Of a stretch of DNA of 64,000 bases, positions 32,255 to 61,052 are shown one piece after another. The stretch is from Acidimicrobiaceae bacterium (GTDB lineage Bacteria; Actinomycetota; Acidimicrobiia; Acidimicrobiales; Ilumatobacteraceae): contig CANFUE010000001.1 in NCBI GenBank assembly GCA_947450115.1, positions 62,001 to 126,000 of the forward strand, written 5' to 3'. Below the pieces are notes generated by a model, which worked only from the letters and a program-made list of their open reading frames with translations, made no database searches and had not been told where the DNA came from. Numbering within the stretch: the first letter of the stretch is position 1; each line of letters starts with the position of its first letter. Position numbers and translations under genes: made by a program.

Positions 32255-35200
32255 ATGATTTCGTTCACTTCTCCTCGTTTGCGTCGCATTGCCGCACTGT
32301 TGCTTCTCACAGGGCTCGGCGCTGGTGCCGCCGGTTGCGGTTCATCAGAAAGCTCCAAAACCCGCAACGGTGCAGTCGGCGAAATACCAACCACATGCGT
32401 CCTTGGTGGGCGTGGACCAACAGGTGGAGTTGTCGTTTCGCTTGCGGCCACAACGAGCGGGACCTCCGTGGAGTCTGCACCTGCTAACTGGACCACAGAG
32501 TCTCAAGTGAACTGGAAAACTATTTCTGCACGGGTGAACGAATACCGTGGTGGCGGCTTTAGTGACTGGAAACTTCCCACCGACGACCAGATGAATACCC
32601 TCGGCAATCCAATTCTGCGGTACGTCGGCGGAAATATGATCTGGTCGTCTACAGCAATTAGTGGCTCCACCTCCGCATGGTACTGGCGCGGATATAGCTT
32701 CGCAGCCGACCAGACTGCCGGCCCCTCGGCTGCCGGTTGGGTAATGAATGCATTCCCAATACGTAACTTCGTTGAAGCAGACACACCGTGCATGGGGGCT
32801 CCCGTTACTACAACCACTTCCACCACAATTGTTCCTCAATCGTGTTCGGCAGGAGGTCTCTGCAAAGTTGGCGATACTGGTACCGGGGGTGGAGTTGTCT
32901 TTTCCACAATTATTGATGCCGCTGGCAACACCGCAATTCTTGAAGCCGCTCCTTCGAACTGGAGTATTTCACCTAGCCAGCCCGAAACTGTTGGCACGCG
33001 CACAGTATCCCCTCCGGAAGCCAGCGAAGGAAATGCATCGAAAATCGCGGCCGCATATCGTGGCGGAAGCAAGAGCGACTGGCGACTTCCAGTAGCAAGT
33101 GAACTCATTTCACTATGCAAACTGAGCGGAAAGCTTTTGGGAACATCCCCTTTTTGGGCAGACAACAGTGGCGGTCTATTGAGCGTTGTGAATGCGGCAG
33201 ATTGTGCAATAAGTACATATCGACCATCGTTCCCTACTTACTTTGTTCGACCCGTACGCAACTACACAGTCTCAGATGCCGTACGCAAGGCAGCTGTGCA
33301 GTACTACACCGTGAACCCCACAACAACGTCCACAACGTCCACAACTTCTACAACATCCACAACATCCACAACATCCACGTCTACAACTTCTACGTCTACA
33401 ACCGTTGCACCTACCACTACAAAGGCCGCATCAAAATGTGCAAGTGGTGGTGCATGTGCAGTTGGTGACACGGGTCCAGGCGGCGGCATTGTTTTCTATG
33501 TTTCACCTACACCTATCAACGCCGCAGCAGGAATCAGTGATGGTGGAAAATATCTAGAAGCGGCCCCCAACACGTGGAATGGCGGGACTTCTGACCCAGC
33601 TCTGCCATGGTGCGACAAGACCACCACCATGATTGGCAACCCCACTGACAGCGGCACAGGAGCTTTCAATACAAAAAGATTAGTTGCGGCTTGTAGTGCA
33701 ACTTCAGCGGCGAACGTTGTTGCAAACTTGTATTTCAACAAGTGGGATGACTGGTTCTTGCCATCGGGGTGGGAGCTCTCGTTTATGTGGAACAACCGAG
33801 TTAAAATTGGTGGGTTTAACAACTCAGTTGCGTATTGGAGTTCATCAGAAGTTCCTGGCAACGTTGCTAAAGGTGCACAACGCCTCGTTTTCGAACCCGT
33901 TAACTGGGTACAAGATACGAAAGCCGGCAATTTCTTAGTACGCCCTATTCGCGCATTCAGCGAAGGTGCAGTTCCTCCGAAGCCACCAGTTCAGACAACT
34001 ACGACAACAAGCACACTGCCACTCGCAGCACCTTGCGTCGGCAAATGTCAAATTGGAAATCGGGGTCTGGGTGACGGAACTATTATTGCAGTGTCAACAG
34101 ACGGCCCCACGACGAGATACCTCATCGTTGCGCGTGACGGTTGGAATAACACTGCCATCGACCCGAAAATGACCCGGGCCGAAGCCCAAGTCGCCGTAGA
34201 TGCGTATAAACCTAACGGCACTTCTGGTTGGACACTTCCCTCTTATCTTGATCAGTGGGGCTTTATGGGGCAAATGGTGTACGTCTGCAAATGGGCTCAC
34301 CAAGAGACGACAACAAGTTCATGGTGCGATATTTCTAAACCACTGCGCAAAGGGTGGTCGAACGGTAATGACACAATGTCTTATTGGACCTCGCATCCAA
34401 CAAGCTGGCAAGGTTCGCCCGGCTACGGAATGGTTTGGAAAATCGGAACCGATGGAACGGCCGCTAACGAATTTCTGAACACCAAAAGCTATGTGCGCCC
34501 TGTACTTGAGTTCTCCTATACGGAGCCTCCCGCACCAACAACAACCACAACAGTTCCACAAATTTGTGCAACGGGTGGAGTGTGCAAAATTGGTGATGTC
34601 AGCCCAACAGGTGGCCTGATTGTGAAGTTCACTGGAACCTCATCTTCAGGAATCGACTACTTAGAAGTTGCACAGAAGAACTGGGACGAAGGTATCGCTG
34701 GTGTTGACAACAACAACGGTGGTGACCCATGGACCAAATTAGCCAACGCTGCGACCTTTGCCAGCAAATACCGTGGTGGCGGAAAAACAGATTGGCACCT
34801 ACCCAACCTTACGGAAATGCGTCAGGCATTTACGGTGACAGAAGCTGCAACGTACACCTCTACAACTGGCAGCAATGGCCAACGCACATGCAAAGTCAAT
34901 ACTGCACCAGGTATTGGTGGCAATGGTATGTGGTACCTGTACGGCGACTATTGGCTCTCTTCAGGAATACCAGAAAAATTCACGACTCCTTCAGGTGCGG
35001 TATACCCAGTGCTCACCACCGATGATGTTGCTGCCGCAGATTGGCAACTGAGTGTTCGCCCCATGCGAACCGGCAAGTACAACGGGCCAGCGATGACTTA
35101 CGTAAACCCTAGATTCACTCCTGCAGAGTGTGAAAATGCCGCCATCGCAACCACCACCACAGCGCCCGACACTCGTACGTGCGCCCAAGGTGGATTGTGC

Positions 35201-57809: not shown

Positions 57810-58530
57810 TTTTCTTTCCAGCATTACTGTTCTCACCTGTATCAGCCTTGGCATCGGTGCACTGTCTGTCAATGCAAGCAACTCTGTAGCGAAGAAAGAT
57901 GAGCGACCCGAAGCATTGATTGTTGGCGACTCAGTCATGAGCGTGCTCGGTGTTTTTGATGCAGCTCTCAAGGAACTTCATAAAAAACATCCGGTGTTGT
58001 TTCAGGCGCAGCCGTGTCAGTTACTTACCCTCTCTGGCTGCATTCCCGAGACAAAAGAGAGCGCCTTTGAACGATTCAAAAATGCGCGAGGAAAATTCAG
58101 TGATGTCATCGTCGTCGCTACTGGCTACAACGAATTCAGCGACCAAATCTTCATCGATGCCATCAAAAAGTTTCGAGACGAAGCCAAGAAACAAAAGGTT
58201 TCCATTATTTGGTTGACCTACCGCGAAAATGGAAATGTCACAGAAAAAGCCAAACGGTATAATTCCATCTTGCGTCGCGTCGCTAAATCCGACCCGAAGT
58301 TTTTCCTTTACGACTGGAACGATTTCTCACTGGGAAGGTTGAGTTGGTTTAGCGGCGATCGCATTCATATGAGTCGTGGAGGCGGCACCAACTTGTCGCG
58401 CTATTTAAGTAAAGCAATTGGTGAGGTCGTTGACATTCGTCATTCGCAGGCAACGACAACAACGTCGTCGACGTCAACAACTACCACTGTGGTTGCCGAG
58501 ACCACCACTACTTCCCTACTTGCGGGGTGA
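57769..58530 (+). CDS. SGNH-fold exported protein with Thr-rich tail
   Basis: A protein of about 253 residues. An N-terminal signal-like segment ('KTSFLSSITVLTCISLGIGA') precedes the SGNH-like domain: 'ALIVGDSVMSVLGVFDAALK' (block I), 'VIVVATGYNEFSDQIFIDAI' (Gly/Asn blocks) and 'WFSGDRIHMSRGGGTNLSRY' (Asp/His, block V). A Thr/Ser/Val-rich tail closes it. No ATG or GTG fits the start; the TTG at 57769 gives a good signal peptide and overlaps the LLM gene by 41 bp. It looks like the SGNH domain attached to acyltransferases in wall modification, here alone. It ends 15 bp inside the convergent SnoaL-like gene. Confidence 0.72.
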   Translation: MKKPLAYFCRYKTSFLSSITVLTCISLGIGALSVNASNSVAKKDERPEALIVGDSVMSVLGVFDAALKELHKKHPVLFQAQPCQLLTLSGCIPETKESAFERFKNARGKFSDVIVVATGYNEFSDQIFIDAIKKFRDEAKKQKVSIIWLTYRENGNVTEKAKRYNSILRRVAKSDPKFFLYDWNDFSLGRLSWFSGDRIHMSRGGGTNLSRYLSKAIGEVVDIRHSQATTTTSSTSTTTTVVAETTTTSLLAG

Positions 58531-59016
58531 CTGAACGAAACGGTCGGGAGCAAATGCTGGCTCCACCATCAACTTCTGGTTCCAGTCGTGGGTGAGGCGA
58601 CGATGCGCAATACGCCAATCGCCGTTACGTAATTCAAAACTGTCAAAGTAGCGACCCGCAAAATTTTCTAGGTACTCGCCACCGTCGTTGCTGCAGCGAT
58701 GCCACGCAAGAATTTGTGTTTCTGCTTCTGCAGTGGTGAGTGATGTAAATGAAAACACTGTGTCGGAAGGAAAATGCTTCGTTGCTATGGCATAGCCGCG
58801 CAAACTCGTTGTTGCATGCTTTGCGAAGTCGGCACCAAGGCCATTAAACGATCCGTAGTCTGCTGTGCCATCGGCATGAAATGCAGAAGCCACAAGTTCG
58901 GGGTCGCAACGGTCAATGCCCAGGCAATAATTCAAAATGCAACGCCGCATCGCGCGTTCTGCTGCAATTGCTGCTTCGGGAGACAAGGGGCCATTGAGTT
59001 CTTGTGGAGTCGTCAT
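58516..59016 (-). CDS. SnoaL-like/NTF2-fold protein
   Basis: A 166-residue protein with the NTF2-like cone fold: 'AAIAAERAMRRCILNYCLGI' opens the helix pair, 'DRCDPELVASAFHADGTADY' follows, and 'GRYFDSFELRNGDWRIAHRR' provides the closing strands. Such proteins include isomerases, dehydratases and the small subunits of ring-hydroxylating oxygenases; no catalytic residue is certain. I place the start at the ATG at 59016, with TACAGT 8 nt upstream. It overlaps the SGNH gene at its 3' end. Function unknown. Confidence 0.82.
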   Translation of the reverse strand: MTTPQELNGPLSPEAAIAAERAMRRCILNYCLGIDRCDPELVASAFHADGTADYGSFNGLGADFAKHATTSLRGYAIATKHFPSDTVFSFTSLTTAEAETQILAWHRCSNDGGEYLENFAGRYFDSFELRNGDWRIAHRRLTHDWNQKLMVEPAFAPDRFVQSPRK

Positions 59017-59024
59017 AGAAGTGA

Positions 59025-59030
59025 ACTGTA
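59025..59030 (-). promoter_or_regulatory. -10 box TACAGT, leaderless
   Basis: On the minus strand TACAGT ends 8 nt before the ATG at 59016. Confidence 0.45.
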
Positions 59031-59157
59031 GTTCAGCCAATTGTGTTGTTGATTACCGGCACAGCGGTCGCCGCAGCCATAAAAGCCGCTACTCCACCCA
59101 ACGACAACCGTCGCAAGCCGAGCAAAGAAAGCAGTTGTAAGACCCAAAATTACTGAG

Positions 59158-59268
59158 TCAGCCTTTTTCTTGGTATGCCTTCAATGACGCCATACCAAAT
59201 AAAATTGCGCCGGTGAAAACGACGAAGAAGATGACAGCACCAAATGAGAAAAGAGCAGCCTCAGACAT
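59158..59268 (-). CDS. Tiny single-helix membrane protein (36 residues)
   Basis: A 36-codon frame starting at the ATG at 59268 reads 'MSEAALFSFGAVIFFVVFTG' and continues with a Gly-rich helix end and 'MASLKAYQEKG'. It has one clear membrane helix (about 5-27) and a charged C-terminal tail. Its ATG directly follows the TAA of the upstream small gene, and a GGAG Shine-Dalgarno sits inside that gene's end, so it is translated from the same mRNA. It is too short for usual gene callers. I do not recognise the family. It may form a small complex with the neighbouring two-helix protein, both downstream of the rhodopsin. Confidence 0.62.
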   Translation of the reverse strand: MSEAALFSFGAVIFFVVFTGAILFGMASLKAYQEKG

Positions 59269-59457
59269 TTACTTGCTCCTTTGGCCGGCAAGAAGAAATG
59301 CGCCGAGTGCGAGAATTGATGGAACCCACACCCCAACATAGATCCCGTTGAGTTTGTCACTTTGATCATTCCCTGCAAAATACAGTGAAATACTCAACGC
59401 CAAACTTGCCGCAGCTGACAACAGAACAGAGATTTGCAGAATGAGTTTTGGCTTCAT
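59269..59457 (-). CDS. Small two-helix membrane protein (62 residues)
   Basis: A 62-residue protein 'MKPKLILQISVLLSAAASLA' with a second helix 'IYVGVWVPSILALGAFLLAG', joined by a polar loop (YFAGNDQSDKLN). No motif or family is recognised. It starts at the ATG at 59457; TTAGGGTG lies just upstream. It is followed immediately (no gap) by the 36-residue gene. Upstream, beyond a terminator-like hairpin, is the rhodopsin gene on the same strand. Role unknown; association with the rhodopsin or another membrane complex is a guess from gene order. Confidence 0.68.
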   Translation of the reverse strand: MKPKLILQISVLLSAAASLALSISLYFAGNDQSDKLNGIYVGVWVPSILALGAFLLAGQRSK

Positions 59458-59479
59458 ATTGCACCCTAACCCAGATATG

Positions 59480-59523
59480 AAAAAAGGGATGGATGTGCGG
59501 CTTATTGCCACACATCCACCCCT
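59480..59523 (-). terminator. Intrinsic terminator or attenuator after the rhodopsin gene
   Basis: A 16-position stem with two mismatches (59485-59500 with 59508-59523) and a 7-nt loop lies 12 bp downstream of the rhodopsin stop on the minus strand. It is followed by a run of about five to six T. It separates rhodopsin from the two tiny membrane protein genes and may act as a terminator or partial attenuator. Confidence 0.75.
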
Positions 59524-59535
59524 TTAATACTTTTT

Positions 59536-60249
59536 CTAGTGTGAATCGCCCGAACGAGCCTTAGCAATGTTCAAAATCATCAAACCAAACAAGCCTTTAG
59601 CCGTAATGTCGGCCACTGTGTAAGCGAGTTGACGTGCAGTCTCTGCGCCCTCGTTACCAGCATCAAAGATCACTGGGAACAAATAGCCAATGGGATACAC
59701 CAACCAAGTAAGCAACAAAATCGCTGTTGCATTCTTCATTGACGATGCAACCGGACCCTTTTCGCGTGCTCCAGCAGCCTTCAACTCACCTGACAAGGTG
59801 AACAAGATGTAAAGAAATGGCAACATCGAGAGGATCCAGAAGGTCCACTTCGTGCCATCACTCGATGCAGTTTCGCCTGGGTAGCCAAGTGCAATCATAA
59901 GCACAGTCGCTGGCACCAAAGTCGACATCAATTTCTTGCGACGCTCTGCAGTAACTCCCAACACAATGAGCAATTCGATGACGAGCAATGGCACTGTGAT
60001 GAGCCAGTCTGCGTAACGATATCCCTGGTTGACGGTACCTTCTGCCCATCCACTCCACATTCTGTAGTAGTGGTAACCAGCGATACCCACAACAACAGCC
60101 GAGACAGCTACGCCCGATTGATATTGCTTTGCGACACTTTTGATTTGCGTCAGGAAATAAACAAATGCCCCGAGCATCACTGCAGTTCCAAAAGAAAGCG
60201 CGTTATATACCAGTTGGTTCAAATTGCTATCTTCAAAAACCATCTTCAT
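59536..60249 (-). CDS. Proton-pumping microbial rhodopsin (green-type, DTE)
   Basis: A 237-residue seven-helix retinal protein. Helix C reads 'GYRYADWLITVPLLVIELLI': Asp81 (proton acceptor), Thr85 and Glu92 (donor) form the DTE set of outward proton pumps. Leu89 matches position 105 of proteorhodopsin, where Leu gives green absorption. His60 and Arg78 match the His75/Arg94 of proteorhodopsin, and helix G 'YTVADITAKGLFGLMILNIA' has Asp214 and the Schiff-base Lys218. A strong Shine-Dalgarno (AGGAG) supports the ATG at 60249. No retinal-forming or carotenoid gene is near. The tRNA-linked GNAT islet lies directly upstream. It pumps protons in light to support ATP formation. Confidence 0.95.
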   Translation of the reverse strand: MKMVFEDSNLNQLVYNALSFGTAVMLGAFVYFLTQIKSVAKQYQSGVAVSAVVVGIAGYHYYRMWSGWAEGTVNQGYRYADWLITVPLLVIELLIVLGVTAERRKKLMSTLVPATVLMIALGYPGETASSDGTKWTFWILSMLPFLYILFTLSGELKAAGAREKGPVASSMKNATAILLLTWLVYPIGYLFPVIFDAGNEGAETARQLAYTVADITAKGLFGLMILNIAKARSGDSH

Positions 60250-60367
60250 GTGATGTCTCCTACTTCATTAGTGGTACACGCGGAAATACGGTTCCACTCG
60301 AGTTCAACATAACGAAGCATGATGAATCATTTGTGAGCCTCATCAACGGAAGTCAGAAGTAAGTATT

Positions 60368-60407
60368 AATTGGCAGCCCCAACGGGATTCGAACCCGTGC
60401 CGCCACC
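60368..60407. repeat. 40-bp direct repeat, distal copy of tRNA-Glu 3' end (att-like)
   Basis: Identical over 40 bp to 60974-61013, which is the 3' end of the tRNA-Glu gene (variable arm, T arm, acceptor strand, CCA and 3-4 nt beyond). Beyond both ends the sequences differ. Here the 5' half of a tRNA is missing, so this is not a functional tRNA. Confidence 0.9.
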
Positions 60408-60439
60408 CTCATGTCACTCTTGCGGCGGTAAATGCAGGT

Positions 60440-60946
60440 TTACGACGGTTTCTGTATCCAATACCTGCGTATTGCAACCCCATCATGCTCCACGATGTTT
60501 TCGAGAACTCCGCCACGAGATTCAATGGTTTTAATAGAGCCAAGATTCTCGTTACCACAGGTGACGAGAACTTCTGATACCCCTAATTCATAAACCAACT
60601 GAAGTGATTGTCGCAAAATTTCTTTTGCAAACCCCTGTCTGCGAAACCCTGGGCGAACTCCGTACCCAATGTGTCCTCCCATGTGCAAGAGAAAGTCATT
60701 AAGGCAATGGCGAATACTTACTCGCCCAATGAGGCTCCCTCCACTTTCGGCAATCAAAAAACTTGCCGGTACACGACCCTCCACAAGATTCTGGCCTAGA
60801 GACTCATTGTGGAGAATCTCCAGATAACTAGACCAAGGCATGCCCTCGTCGTACCCAAGCAGATATTCCCAGTTCTCTTTTGCTAGTTCGACATGACCTT
60901 GTACGGCCTCAGCCTCATCAGAAATGTGAAGGGGACGAAGTTCCAT
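60440..60946 (-). CDS. GNAT family N-acetyltransferase (islet cargo)
   Basis: A 168-residue GNAT protein. Motif A is 'IGYGVRPGFRRQGFAKEILR' (Q/R-x-x-G-x-A, binding the acetyl-CoA pyrophosphate), 'SGGSLIGRVSIRHCLNDFLL' is motif D, and 'VLVTCGNENLGSIKTIESRG' is motif B with the conserved Asn. It acetylates a small amine or protein N-terminus, perhaps an antibiotic or ribosomal target; sequence cannot tell. It is the only gene in the islet bounded by the tRNA-Glu repeats. It has the same orientation as tRNA-Glu and starts about 30 bp after the tRNA's 3' end, so it could be expressed from the tRNA promoter. Origin by transfer is inferred from the repeats. Confidence 0.88.
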   Translation of the reverse strand: MELRPLHISDEAEAVQGHVELAKENWEYLLGYDEGMPWSSYLEILHNESLGQNLVEGRVPASFLIAESGGSLIGRVSIRHCLNDFLLHMGGHIGYGVRPGFRRQGFAKEILRQSLQLVYELGVSEVLVTCGNENLGSIKTIESRGGVLENIVEHDGVAIRRYWIQKPS

Positions 60947-60973
60947 CGAGTAATTAAATCACTCGTCGTCTTC

Positions 60974-61013
60974 AATTGGCAGCCCCAACGGGATTCGAAC
61001 CCGTGCCGCCACC
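60974..61013. repeat. 40-bp direct repeat, proximal copy within tRNA-Glu (att-like)
   Basis: The 3' part of the intact tRNA-Glu gene plus a few bases beyond its CCA; matches 60368-60407 without mismatch over 40 bp. Confidence 0.9.
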
Positions 61014-61052
61014 TTGAGAGGGTGGTGTCCTAGGCCACTAGACGATGGGGCC
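60977..61052 (-). tRNA. tRNA-Glu (anticodon CTC)
   Basis: A 76-nt gene including an encoded CCA (73 nt without). Acceptor GGCCCCA/TGGGGCT, anticodon loop CTCTCAA (anticodon CTC) on a CCACC/GGTGG stem, T loop TTCGAAT. Its 3' part is duplicated at 60368-60407. It lies 84 bp downstream of tRNA-Gln and near gltX. Confidence 0.95.

Follow-up and report, generated by a model that had tools for sequence, protein, structure and literature searches.

How does a single gene come to lie, with no recombinase beside it, between an intact tRNA gene and a second copy of that tRNA's 3' half? The question is raised by a 606-bp islet within a 64,000-nucleotide stretch of DNA (the window) from an Acidimicrobiaceae bacterium, whose genome is a 2.09-Mb draft of 66 contigs, ~90% complete; the islet contig, C1, is 217 kb long. 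A repeat search returned a 40-bp direct repeat at 100% identity and a spacing of 606 bp (Table 1). The repeat consists of tRNA-Glu(CTC) positions 40-76, the 3' 37 nt, plus three bases beyond the CCA. A chance origin of the 40-bp repeat was rejected, since across the 64-kb window exact direct repeats of 20-mers occur elsewhere only in a tandem at 33350/33359 shifted by 9 bp. The outer flank of the distal copy runs on into the native downstream sequence of congeners.

The sequence-only reading had described the 3' half of tRNA-Glu as present twice, in the same orientation and exact over 40 bp, and this was reproduced by the repeat search together with ARAGORN, which also found the CCA of the intact tRNA to be templated, as claimed. 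The single GNAT gene placed between the repeats proved to be one intact ORF with Pfam matches, filling 84% of the islet with ~30 bp on each side. The reported lack of an integrase was borne out: the GNAT is the sole sizeable ORF, and contig C1 contains no tyrosine-recombinase match. At 606 bp, the description of an element far below the usual island size also holds. A search for extra genomic copies of the repeat, suggested by the same reading, found its 31-bp core once more, in the isoacceptor tRNA-Glu(TTC). The islet has a GC content of 47.5% compared with 52.4% for the window, and the neighbouring rhodopsin gene is also low at 47.9%. The near-palindrome between the tRNA and the GNAT folds as a hairpin without a U-run (z -2.2, with 6 of 200 shuffles equally good). 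No comparably short islet was present at any other tRNA among the examined tRNA loci of this genome.

Table 1 Features of the tRNA-Glu islet, in window coordinates.
Feature	Coordinates	Strand	Basis or remark
tRNA-Glu(CTC), intact, CCA encoded; integration target	60977..61052	-	ARAGORN
tRNA-proximal 40-bp repeat copy (attachment-site copy inside tRNA)	60974..61013	-	100% identity; tRNA positions 40-79
tRNA-distal 40-bp repeat copy (truncated tRNA-Glu 3' end)	60368..60407	-	repeat search
Islet interior, 566 bp, missing from congeners	60408..60973	-	DNA search of 60 relatives; empty sites
GNAT acetyltransferase gene, 168 aa, intact, sole cargo	60440..60946	-	ORF list; Pfam PF13302/PF00583
19-bp near-palindrome CGAGTGATTTAATTACTCG, between tRNA and GNAT start codon	60947..60965	-	read from sequence

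To establish the history of the locus, we compared it with the tRNA-Glu loci of relatives, a comparison that the sequence-only reading had named as one that could refute integration. A DNA search of 60 relatives revealed an uninterrupted site with one repeat copy in four genomes of the same genus (G007, G002, G004 and G008), and the finding survived. In all four, the rhodopsin-side flank abuts the tRNA side with a 40- or 41-bp overlap, and joining the window flanks in silico gave 70/70 identical columns across the junction with G007. The islet interior (query 909-1474) had no match among the matches listed in the 60 relatives. We therefore place the insertion in the lineage of this genome. The single-repeat sites, together with an islet that has no integrase and a gene that the searched congeners do not have, uphold the earlier suggestion of integration at a tRNA 3' end. 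Foreign DNA that brought the GNAT gene and its own copy of the 3' end of tRNA-Glu inserted precisely in the 3' half of tRNA-Glu(CTC); the insertion rebuilt the tRNA and left the truncated copy at the far side.

A fifth congener, G005, also has one repeat copy, with a different left neighbour. The gene to the left of tRNA-Glu belongs to the bacteriorhodopsin family here and in several congeners and is undecaprenyl-diphosphatase-like (named by eye) in G005. This swap (window 58516-61052 compared with L040) is a second variable spot beside the islet. Two further genomes, G003 (L046:6144-6997) and G011 (L048:5509-6389), have a gene that is TetR-like by eye splitting tRNA-Gln from tRNA-Glu, where the gap in the window is only 83 bp; considered as an islet, this gene was rejected, as it has no tRNA repeats.

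The cargo was characterized by its Pfam matches to Acetyltransf_3 (PF13302; E 3.7e-10, 41.1 bits against a cut-off of 25.4) and Acetyltransf_1 (PF00583; E 1.4e-9, 38.6 bits against 20.7). Homologues are present in 4 of 100 other family genomes, at no more than 49% identity, and in 22 of 394 other class-level genomes (E 1e-10). An Arthrobacter homologue is 54% identical and its frame appears broken. Phage and plasmid records contain distant GNATs only (<60% identity), and in viral contigs neither a GNAT relative nor an exact 33-bp core was found. Taken together, the empty sites in congeners, the interior without a listed match and the sparse, distant homologues identify the islet as a clean insertion of foreign DNA. 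The insertion was probably recent, as suggested by the far repeat copy, which is unselected and still 40/40 identical. The predicted GNAT structure is of low confidence (mean pLDDT 58) and in the PDB it resembles generic GNATs such as SpeG, and thus we claim no substrate. The start codon lies ~30 bp after the tRNA and the promoter scan showed no promoter-like site at the GNAT start, which suggests that the gene may be read from the tRNA-Glu promoter.

We also considered whether relatives of this GNAT form a family of mobile islets. The ~40 class- and phylum-level homologue loci inspected, most of them with 1.5 kb on each side, have no adjacent tRNA, with the exception of G086, whose homologue lies ~120-140 bp past the second copy of a tRNA-Gly 3' end. 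The idea was rejected: GNAT cargo and islet form are not generally linked. The G086 locus (L058:5258-6985) contains a 985-bp islet running from tRNA-Gly(GCC) to a copy of its 3' half and of the terminator-like region that follows, and the GNAT beyond the far copy of this islet is the closest family homologue of the window GNAT.

Because the islet carries no recombinase, the enzyme that placed it either acted in trans or has been lost. The host genome, 90% complete, encodes four tyrosine recombinases. Two are full-length and look like XerC/XerD (C8 and C13), one lies in a tRNA-Val element (4.4 kb) and one in a tRNA-Arg island (13.7 kb). No helper integrase for tRNA-Glu was found among the tyrosine recombinases of the host, the class searched. 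The tRNA-Val element (L066:5501-9946, contig C7 of the host, G000) is bounded by two tRNA-Val(GAC) copies that share positions 1-61 and not the 3' end, and it encodes a short tyrosine recombinase of 256 aa and an RCC1-repeat protein of 1005 aa. The ~13.7-kb island behind tRNA-Arg(TCT) (L065:2542-16000, contig C31) encodes a 432-aa integrase, a large restriction-like helicase protein that PADLOC matches to type IIG and a protein of 1339 aa with a PADLOC match to PDC-S37. A weak tRNA fragment is present at C31:16225-16279.

To get a broader picture of this attachment site, we ran a 31-bp core pattern on 221 family genomes and counted same-strand pairs on one contig. This revealed nine further tRNA-Glu(CTC) 3'-repeat elements in eight family genomes, spanning 1.0-19 kb, a size distribution that is biased because draft contigs favour short over long elements. 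Individually they measure 1046 bp (G598), 1181 and 1744 bp (G503), 1778 bp (G061), 2064 bp (G098), 3660 bp (G591), 4805 bp (G067), 6234 bp (G517) and 19008 bp (G018), and seven of the nine have no tyrosine-integrase match. Outside the family, G045 has a 2216-bp element at tRNA-Glu(TTC), likewise without such a match, and G054, of the same order, a 9368-bp element at tRNA-Glu(CTC). Across the element-bearing genomes searched, only the elements of G517, G018 and G054 contain a tyrosine integrase. The cargo is one metallo-hydrolase gene in G598, a short-chain dehydrogenase together with a sulfotransferase-like protein whose match falls just under the Pfam cut-off in G503, and by eye a DNA cytosine methylase and an ATPase in G591. 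An integrase scrap suspected by eye in the G061 islet was not confirmed. The 1744-bp G503 element has a clean, single-copy empty site in G494; for G598 an empty site was not definable, as the gene also occurs in G074 and the other genomes do not conserve the far flank.

The two G503 islets (L150:1-1370 and L149:3400-5275) differ from one another, have no integrase and sit next to separate tRNA-Glu(CTC) copies. Relatives of the dehydrogenase region of the larger islet, at 79-82%, occur in four congeners, where their contigs are not the ones with the tRNA-Glu matches. The same genome repeats the 3' end of tRNA-Lys(TTT) (L198:7982-8055) at offsets 4439 and 4715, in a tandem tRNA-flanked arrangement with a tyrosine integrase in the region.

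The independent G503 islet also bears on whether the window islet is real. The genome is a draft of many contigs judged from its assembly, and a GNAT fragment could have been misjoined at the 40-bp repeat. We regard this as highly improbable, since misjoining on both sides via one 40-bp sequence would require the fragment itself to carry a tRNA end, the contig is long, and an islet of the same design has an empty site of its own.

The precise rebuilding of the tRNA, together with the repeated use of one half of this tRNA by unrelated cargos, indicates site-specific recombination. Insertion of a DNA circle in the Campbell manner, through general (RecA) recombination, would require nothing more than the 40 bp of perfect identity, including the three bases outside the tRNA, which the locus offers. 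We consider such an event very unlikely: 40 bp is short for RecA, and one and the same tRNA-Glu half bounds independent cargos in several genera, as site-specific integration gives.

We interpret the islet as a 606-bp non-autonomous integrative cassette, CIME-like or of the "additive island" type, inserted by a recombinase that is specific for tRNA-Glu and was supplied in trans, and give this reading a probability of about 0.6. A circular form bearing the 40-bp core would have recombined into the tRNA, and the recombinase may have come from an integrase-bearing tRNA-Glu element or from a phage or plasmid no longer present. Possible helper elements with an integrase at tRNA-Glu(CTC) are those of G517 (6.2 kb), G018 (19 kb) and G054 (9.4 kb), and G086 has an integrase ~0.7 kb 3' of tRNA-Glu(CTC). 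A candidate helper at tRNA-Glu(TTC) in G067 was rejected, as the integrase sits beyond tRNA-Phe and no repeat was found. Several observations count against the cassette interpretation, namely that no tRNA-Glu helper integrase was found in the host, that no circular form was seen, that the viral contigs yielded nothing, and where the repeat starts. The window repeat begins at tRNA position 40 compared with positions 30-37, in or just before the anticodon loop, for most other elements, which may reflect a different crossover point or enzyme.

The main rival is that the islet is the remnant of a larger integrase-bearing tRNA-Glu island in which internal deletion removed the integrase and every gene except one but spared both att sites; strictly defined, this would be a solitary CIME. 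Full-size, integrase-bearing elements do occupy tRNA-Glu in the family, element sizes run from 0.6 to 19 kb with no clear break, and CIMEs are described as decayed elements that retain their att sites (PMC7563491). Such decay had little time if, as the 40/40 identical repeats imply, the insertion was probably recent. Furthermore, the GNAT has no gene fragments at its flanks, its ORF takes up most of the islet, and tblastn of five integrases detected no integrase trace. We therefore consider a remnant possible, if rather doubtful. The sequence-only reading had left three options side by side: a minimal cassette, a satellite of an integrase elsewhere and the rest of a larger island. The short integrase-free elements at tRNA-Glu in other genera shift this choice towards a non-autonomous cassette, and the deletion remnant keeps the lesser standing just given.

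Three known systems offer comparisons. Small gene cassettes inserted at tRNAs, tRNA-Glu among the named sites, form additive flexible genomic islands in Ca. Actinomarinales (PMC7771536), which are likewise Actinobacteria with rhodopsins. The islet resembles them in being small, in its position at a tRNA and in ending with a repeated tRNA fragment. However, those cassettes lie mostly within one cell-envelope island and use several tRNAs, whereas the islet stands alone next to a rhodopsin gene, holds one gene and has empty sites in congeners, and the text of PMC7771536 gives no cassette size of the islet's order. CIMEs (cis-mobilizable elements) of Streptococcus are decayed ICEs or IMEs, 1.2-13 kb in the classical form and 130-220 bp and gene-free as microCIMEs (PMC7563491). 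Like them, the islet keeps both att sites at the 3' end of the target gene and has cargo only, with recombination and transfer genes absent; its size lies between the two forms. Strict membership requires an ICE or IME ancestor, and none was found as a parent of the islet, which we call CIME-like. Tycheposons, the tRNA-bounded cargo elements of streamlined aquatic bacteria, span 4-200 kb and carry a xerD-type tyrosine recombinase (PMC10872708), a description that the islet, tRNA-bounded with cargo as it is, does not fit in either size or recombinase.

Closer at hand, the islands of G517 and G018 in the family and G054 in the order occupy the same half of the same tRNA-Glu(CTC), with G517 repeating the whole tRNA. 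They differ in their 6-19 kb and their own tyrosine integrase, and G517 and G054 carry methylase and restriction-like cargo. Compared with tRNA-integrated islands in general, the islet has the 3'-end repeat, the intact tRNA and the empty site in relatives, and lacks an integrase of its own. By analogy with these systems, the islet is an example of an already reported kind of mobile DNA, of unusually small size.

More speculatively, and in our view improbable as a whole, the tRNA-Glu 3' end in this family could be the attachment site for a pool of integrase-free cassettes, mostly of one to three genes, that circulate between genomes with recombinases acting in trans and, in suitable orientations, expression of the first gene from the tRNA promoter. 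Such a pool would be comparable in logic to integron cassettes, but without an integron integrase. The islet itself is a very clean and very small case of a gene acquired at a tRNA locus, and its empty site is known. How recombinase-less cassettes move is not settled by PMC7771536, PMC7563491 or PMC10872708, and the islet and the other short integrase-free tRNA-Glu elements provide a defined set in which to ask it.
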